From NCBI GenBank assembly GCA_014338185.1, contig QUBV01000024.1:1-38768 (forward strand): DNA of 38,768 nucleotides, given 5' to 3'. Within the stretch, counting starts at the first letter, position 1. The number at the start of each line of letters is the position of its first letter. The notes beneath the pieces were generated by a model. That model searched no databases. It had not been told where the DNA came from and saw only the letters and a list, made by a program, of their open reading frames with translations. Below are positions 32,808 through 38,768 of the stretch, one piece after another. Origin of the DNA: Lysobacterales bacterium (GTDB taxonomy: Bacteria > Pseudomonadota > Gammaproteobacteria > Xanthomonadales > Rhodanobacteraceae). The translations under genes were made by a program, and so were the position numbers.

Positions 32808-32948
32808 GCAGCCCATCACCGGGTGAAATGGGTGTCTGACCGGGCGATCGCCTGGCGTGCGCCGGCGCGTGCCGCCGCGGCTCGGCCCGGCACGTCCGCT
32901 CGGTCGCTGCCGTACCGTGGCTGGGCGCATGATCTGCGCCCAGGCGCG

Positions 32949-34271
32949 TCAATCGTCGCCGCCCACGAGGCCGGCGCGGCGCATCTGGTGGTCGACCACG
33001 ACCGCGGTGGCGACGTCACTGCCGACGTTGACGGTGGTACGCATCATGTCGAGGATGCGATCGACGCCGATGATGATGCCGATGCCCTCGGGCGGCACGC
33101 CGAACGTCGCGAGCAGGCCCGCGATCAGCGGCAGCGAGCCGCCCGGGATGCCTGCGACGGCCACCGCGCTGAGCACCGCCATGAGCATGAGGATGGCCTG
33201 CTGGGTCAGCGACAGGTCCACGCCGAACACCTGGGCGATGAACAGCACCACGCAGCCCTCGAACAGCGCGGTGCCGCTCATGTTCATCGTCGTGCCCAGC
33301 GACAGCACGAAGCTCGACGTGCTCTCGCTGAGCTTGAGGTCCTCGCGTGCGGCCGCCAGCGCGGTCGGCAAGGTCGCGTTGCTCGAACTGGTCGAGAACG
33401 CGGTGACCAGCACCGGGCGAATGCGGCGGAAGAAGTCCAGCGGCGAGCGCTGGGCGAGGAAACGCATCCACAGTGACATCGTGCCGAACAGGTGCAGCAC
33501 GAAGGCGAGGGTGCAGCCGACCACGAACCAGGCCAGTGCCGCGAGCACGCTCATGCCGACCTTGACGATCACGCTGTAGATCATCGCCGGCACCGCATAC
33601 GGCGCCAGGCGCAGCGCGAAGTCGACGATCCGGGTCATGACCTCGGCCAGCGTCTCGAGCCCCTCCAGCACGCGCTGGCGGCGCGCCTCGACGAGTTGCG
33701 TCGCGGCCATGCCGAACAGGATCGCGAACAGGATCAGCGGCAACACCTCGCCGATCGAACCGCGCTCATGGCCGGTGATCGCGCCGAGCAGGTTGCGCGG
33801 CATGAACATGTCCACGACCAGCGCCAGGCTCATCGACGGCTGTGCCGCACCGCGCTCGGTGATGCCCTTGGCCGTGCCGCCGTATTCGGCCAGCAGTTGC
33901 CGGGTGACTTCTTCGGGCAGGTGCCGACCCGGCTCGAACAGGTTCATCATCACCAGGCCGATGGTCACGCCGATGGCCATGTTGGCGAAGAACACCGCGA
34001 AGGTGCGCAGCGCGAGCGGCCCGAGCCGTCCGGGTCGCCCCAGCTGCACCACGCCGGCAGTGAGCGAGGCGAACACCAGCGGCATCACCACGAAGAACAG
34101 CATGCGCAGGAACACCTGCCCGAATGGGTCGAACACCGCGCTCGACACCTTGCGCATGAGTTCGAGCGTGGCCGGGTGGAACTGGCCGATGCCGAGCGTG
34201 GCGACGGCGGCGACGATGCCGATCCCCATGCCGATGAGGATGCGGTTGGCGAGCGAGGTGGGCGCGTTCAT
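32949..34271 (-). CDS. Dicarboxylate/amino acid:cation symporter (DAACS family)
   Basis: The family imports C4-dicarboxylates or amino acids with Na+ or H+ across the inner membrane. The 440-residue product, [20 protein letters not shown] onward, has about eight membrane helices. It has the serine-rich hairpin [14 protein letters not shown] and helix 8 [17 protein letters not shown] with the substrate Arg, Asn and Asp retained. The helix 7 motif, usually NMDGT, reads NMSGT (residues 330-334), so a conserved Asp of a sodium site in the archaeal homologue is missing. The longer frame upstream of ATG 34271 lacks family sequence. It is divergent from prpB; transport of a related organic acid is a guess. 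Confidence 0.93.
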
Positions 34272-34385
34272 CCGCGCGAATGTACGTGGCCGCCGCGCCC
34301 GAGTCACGCGTCCGTCGCCGATCGGCGCCAGCCGGATGCGGGGCGGCCCGTGGCCGTGGCCGCCGGCCGGGTGCGCGCGATCGGC

Positions 34386-34391
34386 TAGACT
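34386..34391 (+). promoter_or_regulatory. Candidate -10 box of prpBC
   Basis: TAGACT lies 22 nt before ATG 34414. The -35 position 17 nt upstream (CCGGCC) is not recognisable, so an activator may be needed. The 142-nt gap also serves the divergent symporter gene. Confidence 0.3.
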
Positions 34392-34413
34392 ATGCGGTCT
34401 TCCGGGAGACTCC

Positions 34414-35298
34414 ATGACAGCCACTGCCTCTGCCGGCGCGCGCTTTCGCGCCGCGCTCGCCGAAGAAAACCCGCTGCAGGTGGTCGGTACGATCACCGCC
34501 TATGCCGCGCTGATGGCGCGTCGCGTCGGCTATCGCGCGCTGTACCTGTCCGGCGGCGGCGTCGCCGCCAATTCGCTGGGCATCCCCGACCTCGGCGTGT
34601 CGACGATGGAGGACGTGCTCATCGATGCGCGGCGCATCGTCGAGGCCAGCGGCATGCCCCTGCTGGTCGACATCGATACCGGCTGGGGTGGGGCGTTCAA
34701 CATCGCGCGCACGATCCGCAGCTTCGAGCGCGCGGGCGTGGCCGCCGTGCACATGGAGGACCAGGTCGGCCAGAAGCGCTGCGGCCACCGCCCGGGCAAG
34801 GAGGTGGTACCGGCCGCGGAAATGGTCGATCGGGTCAAGGCCGCGGTCGATGCACGCAGCGATGCCGCGTTCGTGGTCATGGCGCGCACCGACGCCGCCG
34901 CCGTGGAGGGCATCGAACGCGCGATCGAGCGGGCGCTGGCCTATGTCGAGGCCGGCGCCGACATGATCTTCCCCGAGGCGATGCGCACGCTCGACGATTA
35001 CCGGCGGTTCAAGGCCGCGGTCAAGGTGCCGATCCTCGCCAACCTCACCGAATTCGGTGCCACGCCGTTGTTCACCACCGCGCAGCTGCGCGACGCGGGC
35101 GTTGACATCGCGCTGTACTGCTGCGGCGCCTACCGGGCCATGAACAAGGCCGCGCTCCACGTCTACGAGACGATCCGCCGCGACGGCACCCAGGCCGCGG
35201 CGGTGCCGACCATGCAGACCCGTGAGGAGCTGTACGACTTCCTCGGCTACCACGCCTGGGAAGCCAAGCTCGACCAGTTGTTCGCCGCGCAGAAATGA
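34414..35298 (+). CDS. prpB: 2-Methylisocitrate lyase
   Basis: PrpB splits 2-methylisocitrate into pyruvate and succinate, the last step of the methylcitrate cycle for propionyl-CoA. The 294-residue product has [18 protein letters not shown], metal-binding DIDTGWGG and the catalytic loop KRCGH at 121-125. Cys123 there is at the same position as in E. coli PrpB. The remaining TIM barrel, including [10 protein letters not shown], is intact. GGGAG at 34404-34408 is the ribosome binding site. prpC follows within 15 nt, so they form an operon. Confidence 0.96.
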
Positions 35299-35312
35299 CC
35301 GAGGAACCCGCC

Positions 35313-36467
35313 ATGAGCGAGACCACCGCCACCCCGTTCAAACCCAAGAAGTCGGTAGCGCTGTCGGGCGTGGCCGCGGGCAATACCGCGCTGTGCACGG
35401 TCGGCCGCAGCGGCAACGACCTGCATTACCGCGGCTACGACATCCTCGACTTCGCCACCCGTTGCGAGTTCGAGGAGATCGCCCACCTGCTGGTGCACGG
35501 CAAGCTGCCCAATCGCGCCGAACTGACCGCGTACAAGGCCAGGCTCAAGGCGTTGCGCGGCTTGCCGGCCGCAGTCAAGGCGGTGCTGGAGAGCCTGCCC
35601 GCGAGTGCCCATCCGATGGATGTGATGCGCAGCGGCGTGTCGGCGCTGGGCTGCGTGCTGCCGGAGAAGGACGACCACAACCATCCCGGTGCGCGCGACA
35701 TCGCCGACCGGCTCATGGCCAGCCTCGGCAGCATGCTGCTGTACTGGTACCACCATGCGGTCAACGGCCGGCGCATCGAGGTGGAGACCGACGATGACTC
35801 CATCGGCGGCCATTTCCTGCACCTGCTGCACGGCACGGCGCCCAGCCAGGCGTGGGTGCGTGCGATGCACACCTCGCTGATCCTGTACGCCGAGCACGAG
35901 TTCAACGCATCGACCTTCACCGCGCGCGTGATCGCGGGTACCGGCAGCGACATGTACTCGTCGATCGCCGGTGCGATCGGCGCGCTGCGCGGCCCCAAGC
36001 ATGGCGGTGCCAACGAGGTCGCGTTCGAGATCCAGAAGCGCTACGACACTCCCGACGAGGCCGAGGCCGACATCCGCGCGCGGGTCGAGCGCAAGGAGGT
36101 CGTGATCGGCTTCGGGCATCCGGTCTACACCACGGGTGATCCGCGCAACCAGGTCATCAAGCAGGTCGCGCGCGAACTGTCGGTGGCACAGCACGACATG
36201 CGTATGTTCGATATCGCCGAACGGCTGGAGACGGTGATGTGGGACATCAAGAAGATGTTCCCGAACCTGGACTGGTTCAGCGCGGTGAGCTACCACATGA
36301 TGGGCGTGCCCACGGCGATGTTCACGCCGTTGTTCGTGATTTCGCGCACCTCGGGCTGGAGCGCCCACGTGATCGAGCAGCGCATCGACGGCAAGATCAT
36401 CCGCCCGAGCGCGAACTACACGGGCCCGGACAACCTGCCGTTCGTGCCGCTCGACCAGCGCGCCTGA
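35313..36467 (+). CDS. prpC: 2-Methylcitrate synthase
   Basis: PrpC condenses propionyl-CoA with oxaloacetate to 2-methylcitrate. The 384-residue product has the citrate synthase fold with GPKHGGANE and [13 protein letters not shown] carrying catalytic histidines, and [10 protein letters not shown] near the N-terminus. It is closer to PrpC than to GltA in length and lacks the GltA N-terminal domain. I choose ATG 35313, preceded by GAGGAA at 35301-35306. An in-frame ATG at 35295 overlaps the prpB stop but has no ribosome binding site. prpD or acnD/prpF genes are not in the window. Confidence 0.94.
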
Positions 36468-36494
36468 CCCGGGCACGCGGCGCGCCGCGGCGCA

Positions 36495-36518
36495 GGACGG
36501 CCGCGAGTGCGGCCCTCC
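36495..36518. repeat. REP-like hairpin after prpC
   Basis: GGA-C-GGCCGC (36495-36504), loop GAGT, GCGGCC-C-TCC (36509-36518): nine pairs with one C-C mismatch. A mismatch inside a short GC stem is a feature of REP elements. A palindrome GCGGCGCGCCGC lies just before it (36477-36488). Only one copy is visible here, so repeat status is unproven; it may simply end the prpBC mRNA. Confidence 0.35.
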
Positions 36519-36519
36519 C

Positions 36520-36547
36520 TTGACGCCGGCGGCCTTGCCCGCATACT
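36520..36547 (+). promoter_or_regulatory. Candidate promoter of the 157-residue protein gene
   Basis: TTGACG (5 of 6) at 36520-36525 lies 16 nt before CATACT (4 of 6) at 36542-36547. The start would be near 36554, 24 nt before ATG 36578. Confidence 0.5.
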
Positions 36548-36577
36548 GGCGCCAGACGGGCACGGACAGGGGATTGG

Positions 36578-37051
36578 ATGGCCACGTATGGGAAAACCGA
36601 CCTGGGTCGCGCCGAGGTCGGACAACGCCAGCACAAGCTCGCTTCGCCGGTGCGCTCGCTGCTGTTGCTGGTGGACGGGCAGCGCGACCTGGCCACCTTG
36701 CGCCGCTTCGCCGCGTCGCTCCACGCGCCCGGCGATGCGCTCGAGCAGCTGCAGGCGCTTGGCCTCATCGCAATGGCCGGACCCGATGCACCGCGTACGG
36801 CCGCGGCCAATGCCGAACCGGCACCCTCGGATGCGGCCATCCGCTTCATCACCCTGAGCGGACTGATGTCGGAGGGCGTGCGTTCATACCTGGGCATGCG
36901 CGGTTTCATGACCCAGCTGCGCATCGAGCGCTGCGCGGACATCGACGACCTGCTGCAGTTGCTGCCCGAGGTGAGCGCGGCGGTCGCCAAGGCGCGCTCG
37001 CCGGAGTTCGCGCAGCAGTGGGAGTCCATCGTGCGCAGCTCGGTGGCCTGA
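36578..37051 (+). CDS. Conserved-looking protein of unknown function
   Basis: The 157-residue product has two parts. Residues 1-65 (SPVRSLLLLVDGQRDLATLR, then LEQLQALGLI) look like a small helical, winged-helix-like module known in many proteobacterial hypothetical proteins. Residues 85-157 are mostly helical (LSGLMSEGVRSYLGMRGFMT). An Ala/Pro-rich linker joins them. No signal peptide, membrane segment or catalytic motif is seen, and I do not recognise a function. It has its own candidate promoter, faces the GST gene, and has codon use like its neighbours. Confidence 0.8.
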   Translation: MATYGKTDLGRAEVGQRQHKLASPVRSLLLLVDGQRDLATLRRFAASLHAPGDALEQLQALGLIAMAGPDAPRTAAANAEPAPSDAAIRFITLSGLMSEGVRSYLGMRGFMTQLRIERCADIDDLLQLLPEVSAAVAKARSPEFAQQWESIVRSSVA

Positions 37052-37168
37052 CCCGCCGCCGCGGGTTGGGCATCGCGCACATCACCACTGACCGCACGCG
37101 GCCGGCCATCAGGACCGGCCACGTGGCTTGGCGCGCGTGAATGCAGCGCGCGGCCGACAGCGGTCTTG

Positions 37169-37774
37169 CTACTGGACCGCGAGCACCTTTTGCACCGCCG
37201 GGTCGGCCTCCATGCGCGCGCAGAAACGCGCGAGGTTGTCGTAGCCGCTCAGGTCCACGCCCGTGCCCTTGGCCCAACGCGCGGTGATGAACAGGTAGGG
37301 GTCGGCGATCGAGCGCGACCCGCCCGCGATCCACTCATGCTTGCCCAGCTGCGCGTCGGCGCGACCGAACAGGGTGCGCAGCGTGGCGCGCGCATTGTCC
37401 TTGCTCTTGTCGACCGCTGCGGCGTCGTCGAGGTAGGCGGTCGCGCCGAACAGCGGCTTGAACGCGGGATGCACGTCGGCATTGACGAACGCGAGCCAGC
37501 GGTTGACTTCGGCCCGGCCCTTGGCGGTGCCGTCGCCATCGAGCCCGGCTTCGGGATTGAGGTCGGTCAGGTAGTGCAGAATTGCCATGTTCTGGGTCAG
37601 CACCCAGCCATCGTGCTCCAGCGCGGGCACCGCGCCGGCCGGATTGATCGCGCGGAACTCGGGCGTGGCGCGCATTTCGCGCGTGACGACCTGGACGTCA
37701 TAGGGCTTGCCGATCCATTCGAGCACGATGTGGTCGGCGGTCGAGCAGGCGCCCGGGGAGGTGAACAGCTTCAT
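37169..37774 (-). CDS. Glutathione S-transferase, beta-class-like
   Basis: GSTs conjugate or exchange glutathione on electrophiles in the cytosol. ATG 37774 gives 201 residues, MKLFTSPGACSTADHIVLEW onward. The thioredoxin-like N-domain carries Cys10, the hallmark active residue of bacterial beta-class enzymes, the cis-Pro GAVPALEHDG and LTQNMAILHYL. The helical C-domain includes GGSRSIADPYLF, the N-capping box region. Upstream in-frame codons are not family-like. It follows the VanX-like gene on the same strand after 84 nt. Confidence 0.94.
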   Translation of the reverse strand: MKLFTSPGACSTADHIVLEWIGKPYDVQVVTREMRATPEFRAINPAGAVPALEHDGWVLTQNMAILHYLTDLNPEAGLDGDGTAKGRAEVNRWLAFVNADVHPAFKPLFGATAYLDDAAAVDKSKDNARATLRTLFGRADAQLGKHEWIAGGSRSIADPYLFITARWAKGTGVDLSGYDNLARFCARMEADPAVQKVLAVQ

Positions 37775-37858
37775 TGGATGTCCTTGTGCGGTGGAAAACC
37801 ATTGGCAGGCGCCGAGATGGTGGCGCGGGGGCGACAAAACAAGTGCCGGTGGCGCGCG

Positions 37859-38410
37859 TCAGCGCCGTTCGATGTCCTCGAAGCGCAGGTTGCCGATCGG
37901 CCACGACTGCCAGTCGCGGTAGTCGAAATGCCACCACTCGAACTCGTAGACCGTGAAGCCTTCGCGCTCCATCGCCGCGCGCAGATGGTCACGGTTGGCG
38001 CGCTCCTGCGCGCTGCCGCCGGCATAGGCGGGATAGGCGCGCTCGGTGAACTCATCGTACAGGCTCGGCATCGGCAGCGGCTTGCCGCTGCGCAGGTCCA
38101 CCAGCGTGAGGTCGACCGCGCAACCGCGGTTGTGGCGCGAGCCCTTGACCGGATCACCCACGAAGTGGTGCTGATGTTCGGGCGTGGCGTCCCAGAACAT
38201 CCGCGTCACGTACCACGGCCGGTAGCCATCGAAGACGAGCAGGCCCAGCCCCTCGCGTGCCAGCGACTGTTGCACGCGCACCAGAGCCTCGGCGGCCGGG
38301 CGCTGCAGGAACGCGCGGGCCTGGCTGTACAGCGGCGTGCCAAGGAAGTTGTCGCTGCCGGCATAGCGGATGTCCAGGCGCAGCGTGGGGTCGAGCCGGA
38401 CCAGCTCGAC
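37859..38410 (-). CDS. D-alanyl-D-alanine dipeptidase (VanX/DdpX family), 5'-truncated
   Basis: The family cleaves D-Ala-D-Ala in a zinc-dependent way, for peptidoglycan recycling or glycopeptide resistance. About 184 residues are recognisable, from ELVRLDPTLRLDIRYAGSDN to the C-terminus. Key features are FDGYRPW (substrate Arg), SRHNRGCAVDLTL (zinc His and Asp) and EFEWWHFDY (catalytic Glu and zinc His). Upstream of about 38410 the minus frame stays open to 38593, but that peptide is the antisense of another gene and not VanX-like. The natural N-terminus, probably with a signal sequence, is missing because of the junction described separately. It is therefore partial, and its start cannot be given. 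Confidence 0.85.
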   Translation of the reverse strand, partial: VELVRLDPTLRLDIRYAGSDNFLGTPLYSQARAFLQRPAAEALVRVQQSLAREGLGLLVFDGYRPWYVTRMFWDATPEHQHHFVGDPVKGSRHNRGCAVDLTLVDLRSGKPLPMPSLYDEFTERAYPAYAGGSAQERANRDHLRAAMEREGFTVYEFEWWHFDYRDWQSWPIGNLRFEDIERR

Positions 38411-38768
38411 AAGACCGGCCTGTTCAAGGTCAACCTCCAGTCGACGGAATGGGTGAAGTACTCCGAGGACCGCACGGCCGACGTCTACCCGATGTACCAG
38501 CTGGGATGGTTCCCCGACTACTCGGATGCCGACAACTACCTGGTGCCGTTCTTCTACGACACGGATGAGACCCCGAGCTTCCTCGGCAACCACTACCGCA
38601 ACGAGGACATCAACAAGGCCCTCACCGAGCAGGCGTCGATCGCCGACAAGGGCGAACGCGCCAAGGCGATCGAGGATCTCCAGAACCAGCTCGCGGAGGA
38701 GCTGCCGACGCTGCCGCTGCTCCAGGGCAACCAGATCGCGGTCGCCGGCAAGGACGTCCAGGGGCTCG
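38402..38768 (+). CDS. Family 5 ABC transporter peptide-binding protein, C-terminal fragment
   Basis: A plus-strand frame runs open from the junction to the window end, giving 122 residues: QLDKTGLFKVNLQSTEWVKY, then YQLGWFPDYSDADNYL, ending LPTLPLLQGNQIAVAGKDVQ. This is the C-terminal lobe of oligopeptide/dipeptide-binding proteins (SBP_bac_5). The LGWFPDYSDADNYL and QGNQIAVAGKDVQG forms resemble actinobacterial members most. Neither the 5' part (signal peptide, N-lobe) nor the stop is present. It does not fit the surrounding gammaproteobacterial genes and probably belongs to another organism. Confidence 0.8.

Follow-up and report, generated by a model that had tools for sequence, protein, structure and literature searches.

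The right end of a Lysobacterales contig is very probably a chimera that joins Brevibacterium-like DNA to a broken host dipeptidase gene

Contig C79 in the draft genome of a Lysobacterales bacterium ends in two genes that are cut at the same point and face in opposite directions, which raises the question of whether its last few hundred bases belong to the host. The window analysed is the entire contig (G000:C79:1-38768; 38,768 nucleotides), base 38768 being the contig end, and no tRNA gene was found in it by ARAGORN. The host assembly consists of 3,173,066 bases in 118 contigs and is rated 99.99% complete with 0.17% contamination. The features of the right end of the window are as follows.

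37859-38413, minus strand: Peptidase_M15 gene (D-Ala-D-Ala dipeptidase, DdpX-like) of the host, truncated on its N-terminal side; assigned by PF01427 and same-genus homology
38398-38413, no strand: junction zone in which host and Brevibacterium homologies overlap, with the exactly shared core CAGCTCGAC at 38402-38410
38402-38768, plus strand: Brevibacterium-like fragment of a solute-binding protein family 5 gene, foreign to the host; assigned by DNA and protein identity to B. casei and absence from host relatives

An initial annotation of the sequence had traced dipeptidase family sequence on the minus strand up to approximately position 38410, and homology agrees: window:37859-38419(-) matches Pfam Peptidase_M15 (PF01427) with an E-value of 5.7e-36 and 124.6 bits, above the gathering score of 27, and DNA homology to genomes of the same genus ends at 38413-38419. 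The dipeptidase protein has matches in eight of 15 other same-genus genomes, with an identity of 66-79% in seven and of 46% in the eighth (G006). The locus is 80.2% identical in DNA to that of G011 over 38001-38414, and the order of genes upstream in G011, on the C-terminal side of the dipeptidase, is the same as in the window across 32946-38414. The homolog in G011 (79% protein identity) is intact, with 246 amino acids, and the motif that adjoins the break in the window lies at its residue 63; the window copy, in contrast, lacks approximately the first 61-62 residues of the G011 protein, among them an apparent lipoprotein signal peptide (by reading), and it stops at the onset of the foreign DNA. 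The label VanX, which the initial annotation had given to this gene, was not upheld. The score against the vancomycin-resistance VanX model (NF033115) is 98.4 bits with an NCBIfam cut-off of 320, and the score against the general D-Ala-D-Ala dipeptidase model (PRK10178) is 141.9 with a cut-off of 176, both scores being depressed by the missing N-terminus. Because the protein falls so far below the VanX cut-off, DdpX-like would be the safer name for this D-Ala-D-Ala dipeptidase, and the scores lend no support to a VanX of the resistance type. The minus-strand frame of the dipeptidase (37859-38767) stays open through the joint to the contig end for 302 residues, from which an automatic annotator could predict a false, longer dipeptidase.

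To the right of the joint, the plus-strand family 5 frame that had been described as beginning abruptly in mid-protein and staying open to the end was recovered as a single open stretch of 122 residues at 38402-38767(+), with neither start nor stop, which matches SBP_bac_5 (PF00496) at 33.8 bits (gathering score 32.4) over positions 311-365 of the 368-position profile. The two genes are thus on opposite strands and each is broken mid-gene at the joint, as first reported. The actinobacterial look of the binding protein can be narrowed to Brevibacterium by both DNA and protein: positions 38398-38768, the contig's last bases included, are identical to B. casei CIP 102111 at 349 of 371 bases (94%), and the encoded protein is 93% identical to residues 406-527 of a B. 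casei solute-binding protein (L005:3786-5420, NZ_FXZC01000001.1) that is whole, with 544 residues, whereas the window holds a 122-residue piece. The match at 38398-38763 has an E-value of 6.8e-164 and for that reason can be regarded as not due to chance. Brevibacterium is named in the titles of 34 of the best 80 protein relatives (82 were found), the top one being B. casei at 93%. Within the genus of B. casei, the stretch is present in 50 of 57 genomes at 77-95% DNA identity, each time from 38398-38402 onward; one of the other seven has a 45-base match only and six have none. Because B. casei is the nearest (95%) and the next genome reaches only 88%, the donor is predicted to be B. casei or a close sister, at an identity short of strain level. 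From 38402 on there are 21 mismatches to B. casei, of which 13 are at third codon positions, a share such as would be expected for a working gene of a close relative. The complete B. casei protein is far below all NCBIfam equivalog cut-offs shown, and the tail is predicted to be the C-terminal part of a gene for a peptide- or nickel-type solute-binding protein, of which the substrate class is only putative. Searches with the two sides separately, a check proposed at the outset, gave best matches in different, distant lineages.

Two of the binding-protein relatives carry unexpected titles. A contig titled as a Propionibacteriales metagenome-assembled genome (L018, JAKDKP010000282.1) encodes a binding protein at 79% identity, amid the Brevibacterium range, and is possibly a mis-binned Brevibacterium contig. 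A record titled Sporosarcina beigongshangi (L060, NZ_JADHDY010000016.1) has an actinobacterial-type copy at 61% that ranks among those of Microbacterium and Arthrobacter, and possibly comes from a contaminated or mislabelled assembly.

The change from one source to the other is abrupt. In ten-base steps, ungapped identity to B. casei is 0-40% for 38338-38397 and 80-100% for 38398-38467, and the host and Brevibacterium homologies overlap in a microhomology of approximately 9-12 bases. Its core (38402-38410) is found in B. casei; at the corresponding position, four of eight relatives have 8-10 consecutive bases identical to B. casei and the remaining four have 5-6, a comparison in which the relatives stand in for the host's original sequence. 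Because common runs this short are equally compatible with a chimeric library molecule, a mis-join or natural illegitimate recombination, the microhomology does not discriminate between these origins.

The host's native continuation is on another contig. In G011, the gene past the dipeptidase start encodes a FadH/OYE-type oxidoreductase (Pfam Pyr_redox_2 and Oxidored_FMN, with FadH/OYE-type NCBIfam models under their cut-offs), and the stretch that follows the dipeptidase corresponds in the host to C90:79-5841 at 82% identity. Contig C90 opens with the end of a complete FadH/OYE-type gene (minus strand, last base 79), which has the same strand sense as the dipeptidase neighbour in G011. The start of C90 matches six of the seven same-genus loci compared, the seventh (G012) stopping at a contig edge; the dipeptidase and FadH/OYE-type genes are directly adjacent in G011 and G015 and approximately 0.8, 1.0, 2.0 and 4.0 kb apart in the other four. 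The number of bases missing between C79 and C90 is approximately 208 by comparison with G011 and 213 by comparison with G015. By this synteny C79 and C90 should abut with approximately 210 bases missing, and the gap should encode the dipeptidase N-terminus (the first 61-62 residues). That N-terminus is not in the 355 bases of the tail past 38413, and so C79 appears to have been continued with foreign DNA where the assembly has a short gap. With a host-genus dipeptidase on the left, Brevibacterium on the right and the native neighbour on C90, the proposal that the joint crosses organisms is borne out.

The tail protein is unmatched in all 15 same-genus and all 21 same-family genomes searched; close relatives with the same arrangement, which would have spoken for a genuine locus, were therefore not found among the 15. 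Weak matches in seven of 24 same-order genomes (25-36% identity, E-values of 1.5e-7 to 5.7e-4) come from ordinary remote homologs, the protein family being a large one. Within the host assembly the tail itself is the only match to its protein, up to an E-value of 10. A 10.4-kb B. casei locus used as a query against the host (40 of 427 candidates scored) returned the tail and three matches of 28-98 bases: 98 bases at 77% on C18, 95 bases at 73% on C93, and 28 bases at 96% near the start of C47. The C47 match was rejected as a further piece; among the matches listed, the first 1200 bases of that contig gave only 15-49-base matches to 80 actinobacterial loci, with E-values of at least 0.002. The evidence that the rest of the B. 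casei dpp/opp-type locus is absent from the assembly is strong, if not complete, 40 of 427 candidates having been scored.

Composition was compared by a fifth-order Markov score of host versus B. casei DNA. The score of the tail (38414-38768) is equalled by only seven of 2964 interior host windows, five of 112 held-out B. casei windows score at or under it, and the top-scoring 350-base stretch of the window is the last one sampled, from 38401. A sample for wider contamination comprised 103 host stretches (1.29 Mb) plus the window, out of 3.17 Mb, and 0.31 of approximately 3.8 Mb (approximately 8%) of B. casei. Beyond the tail, no B. casei-like piece of at least 86% identity was found between the 1.29 Mb of host and 0.31 Mb of B. 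casei DNA, and the five other matches, at 77-85% over 71-466 bases, are ordinary conserved genes. Wider Brevibacterium contamination was rejected on these matches, in a sample of approximately 8% of B. casei that leaves other pieces possible. A plasmid source of the tail was also rejected: the three record matches, all from Streptomyces, each cover 18% of the query at 79-81%, and would indicate Actinomycetota rather than a plasmid.

The same score was applied to 156 of the 236 contig ends of the assembly, eight of which are from four all-N contigs and are uninformative; four ends lie above the 99.9th percentile of the 2964 interior windows. Repeats and tRNA genes are frequent at contig ends, and a high score alone therefore proves nothing. 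The left end of C57 was dismissed as foreign: its approximately 100 opening bases recur at the end of C41 and are, by reading, a repeat with a tRNA gene. Three other ends among the 156 scored look foreign, as putative cases. The right end of C56 (L194:7636-8666), with the top non-host composition score of the 156, holds approximately 1 kb of a gene for the type VI secretion protein TssG on the minus strand (PF06996, E-value 2.9e-98), adjoined, by reading, by an acyltransferase-like gene; comparison with G003, G011 and B. casei gave no match, an empty result that is uninformative there, and this end may be a second foreign one or a native island. The left end of C62 (L200:1-288) has a weak DinB_2 match (E-value 0.0013, under the curated cut-off) and its frame leads on without a break to a DUF2339 gene; relatives show long matches only from base 289 (G011) or from approximately 380-413 or later (others), and the stretch is a possible foreign tail. 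At the right end of C63 (L201:6957-7375), a possible foreign end, long matches to relatives stop at or before 6956, and the last 419 bases are unlike in composition and contain the beginning of an open frame, for which Pfam gave no match.

Two DNA sources meet at the joint of C79, the true neighbour of the dipeptidase is on C90, and the binding protein is absent from the host's relatives. The right end of C79 is almost certainly a chimera in which approximately 370 bases of B. casei-like DNA are joined to the broken host dipeptidase gene, an artefact of assembly or contamination. We infer with high confidence an in vitro or in silico origin of the join, because a natural insert should have left further parts of the donor locus in an assembly rated 99.99% complete, and there would be little reason for it to end roughly a fragment's length beyond a contig gap. 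In such an event, approximately 370 bases from a Brevibacterium near B. casei would have become attached to the severed dipeptidase gene within the 9-12 bases of microhomology, either in a chimeric library molecule, through ligation or through template switching in amplification, or by mis-extension of the contig into reads of a contaminant or community member at a short coverage gap. The length of the tail, about that of one read or short fragment, fits both routes and favours neither. Counting against an artefact are the identity to B. casei, which at 94% is below the 99-100% that would mark the exact donor strain, the reported contamination of only 0.17%, and the three short further matches of the 10.4-kb query (40 of 427 candidates scored), of which the one on C47 was rejected.

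A real and recent transfer, with a Brevibacterium insert separating the dipeptidase from the FadH/OYE-type gene and the end of the contig falling within that insert, is very unlikely. A gap-spanning insert would also leave C79 ending in Brevibacterium DNA and C90 starting on the far side, and a few common bases at a joint can mediate natural illegitimate recombination as well; however, the 10.4-kb query (40 of 427 candidates scored) recovered no remainder of the dpp/opp-type locus, the first 78 bases of C90 have no convincing Brevibacterium match, both genes are cut mid-frame, the fragment is a quarter of a protein (122 of 544 residues), and all 15 same-genus genomes lack the tail protein. Reading of 36500-38768 revealed no mobile element beside the joint and no integrase or insertion sequence; of the other marks of mobile-element transfer, a tRNA site and a second boundary, neither is present, there being no tRNA gene in the window and a match that runs to the contig end. 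The version of this event in which a fragment of a Brevibacterium peptide-transporter gene arrived very recently by natural microhomology and the remainder of the insert was lost in the gap between C79 and C90 is extremely unlikely. That a deletion or rearrangement inside the host genome joined two host genes is extremely improbable: solute-binding proteins of this family are common and have weak relatives (25-36%) in seven of 24 same-order genomes, but the tail is 94% Brevibacterium DNA, and this identity, together with the lack of a second match in the host assembly even at an E-value of 10, led to its rejection.

The tail of C79 is thus most likely not a real biological feature of the host, and the advice of the initial annotation not to attribute sequence after approximately 38.4 kb to this organism holds, for everything to the right of approximately 38402. 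The consequence is mostly one of housekeeping: the tail should be trimmed, which would keep a Brevibacterium fragment and the fused 302-residue dipeptidase frame out of databases. The case also illustrates that foreign DNA can end a contig even where the genome has ratings of 99.99% for completeness and 0.17% for contamination, and that the gene order of relatives suffices to expose such an end without reads. Among the papers listed for Brevibacterium casei, Lysobacter (a presumed host genus) and genome contamination together, none concerns the C79 case. The class of error has a name: one review notes that vector contaminants frequently occur at the ends of contigs and that chimeric sequences in metagenome-assembled genomes can result from errors of assembly, and it uses the term chimeric sequence contamination (PMC10978663). 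The C79 end has distant lineages on its two sides, a joint absent from relatives and a native continuation elsewhere in the assembly. As in that class of error, sequences of two organisms share a contig, in this case with the foreign DNA at its end, and nothing of substance sets C79 apart; in C79 the donor is another bacterium and the missing neighbour has been located on C90.
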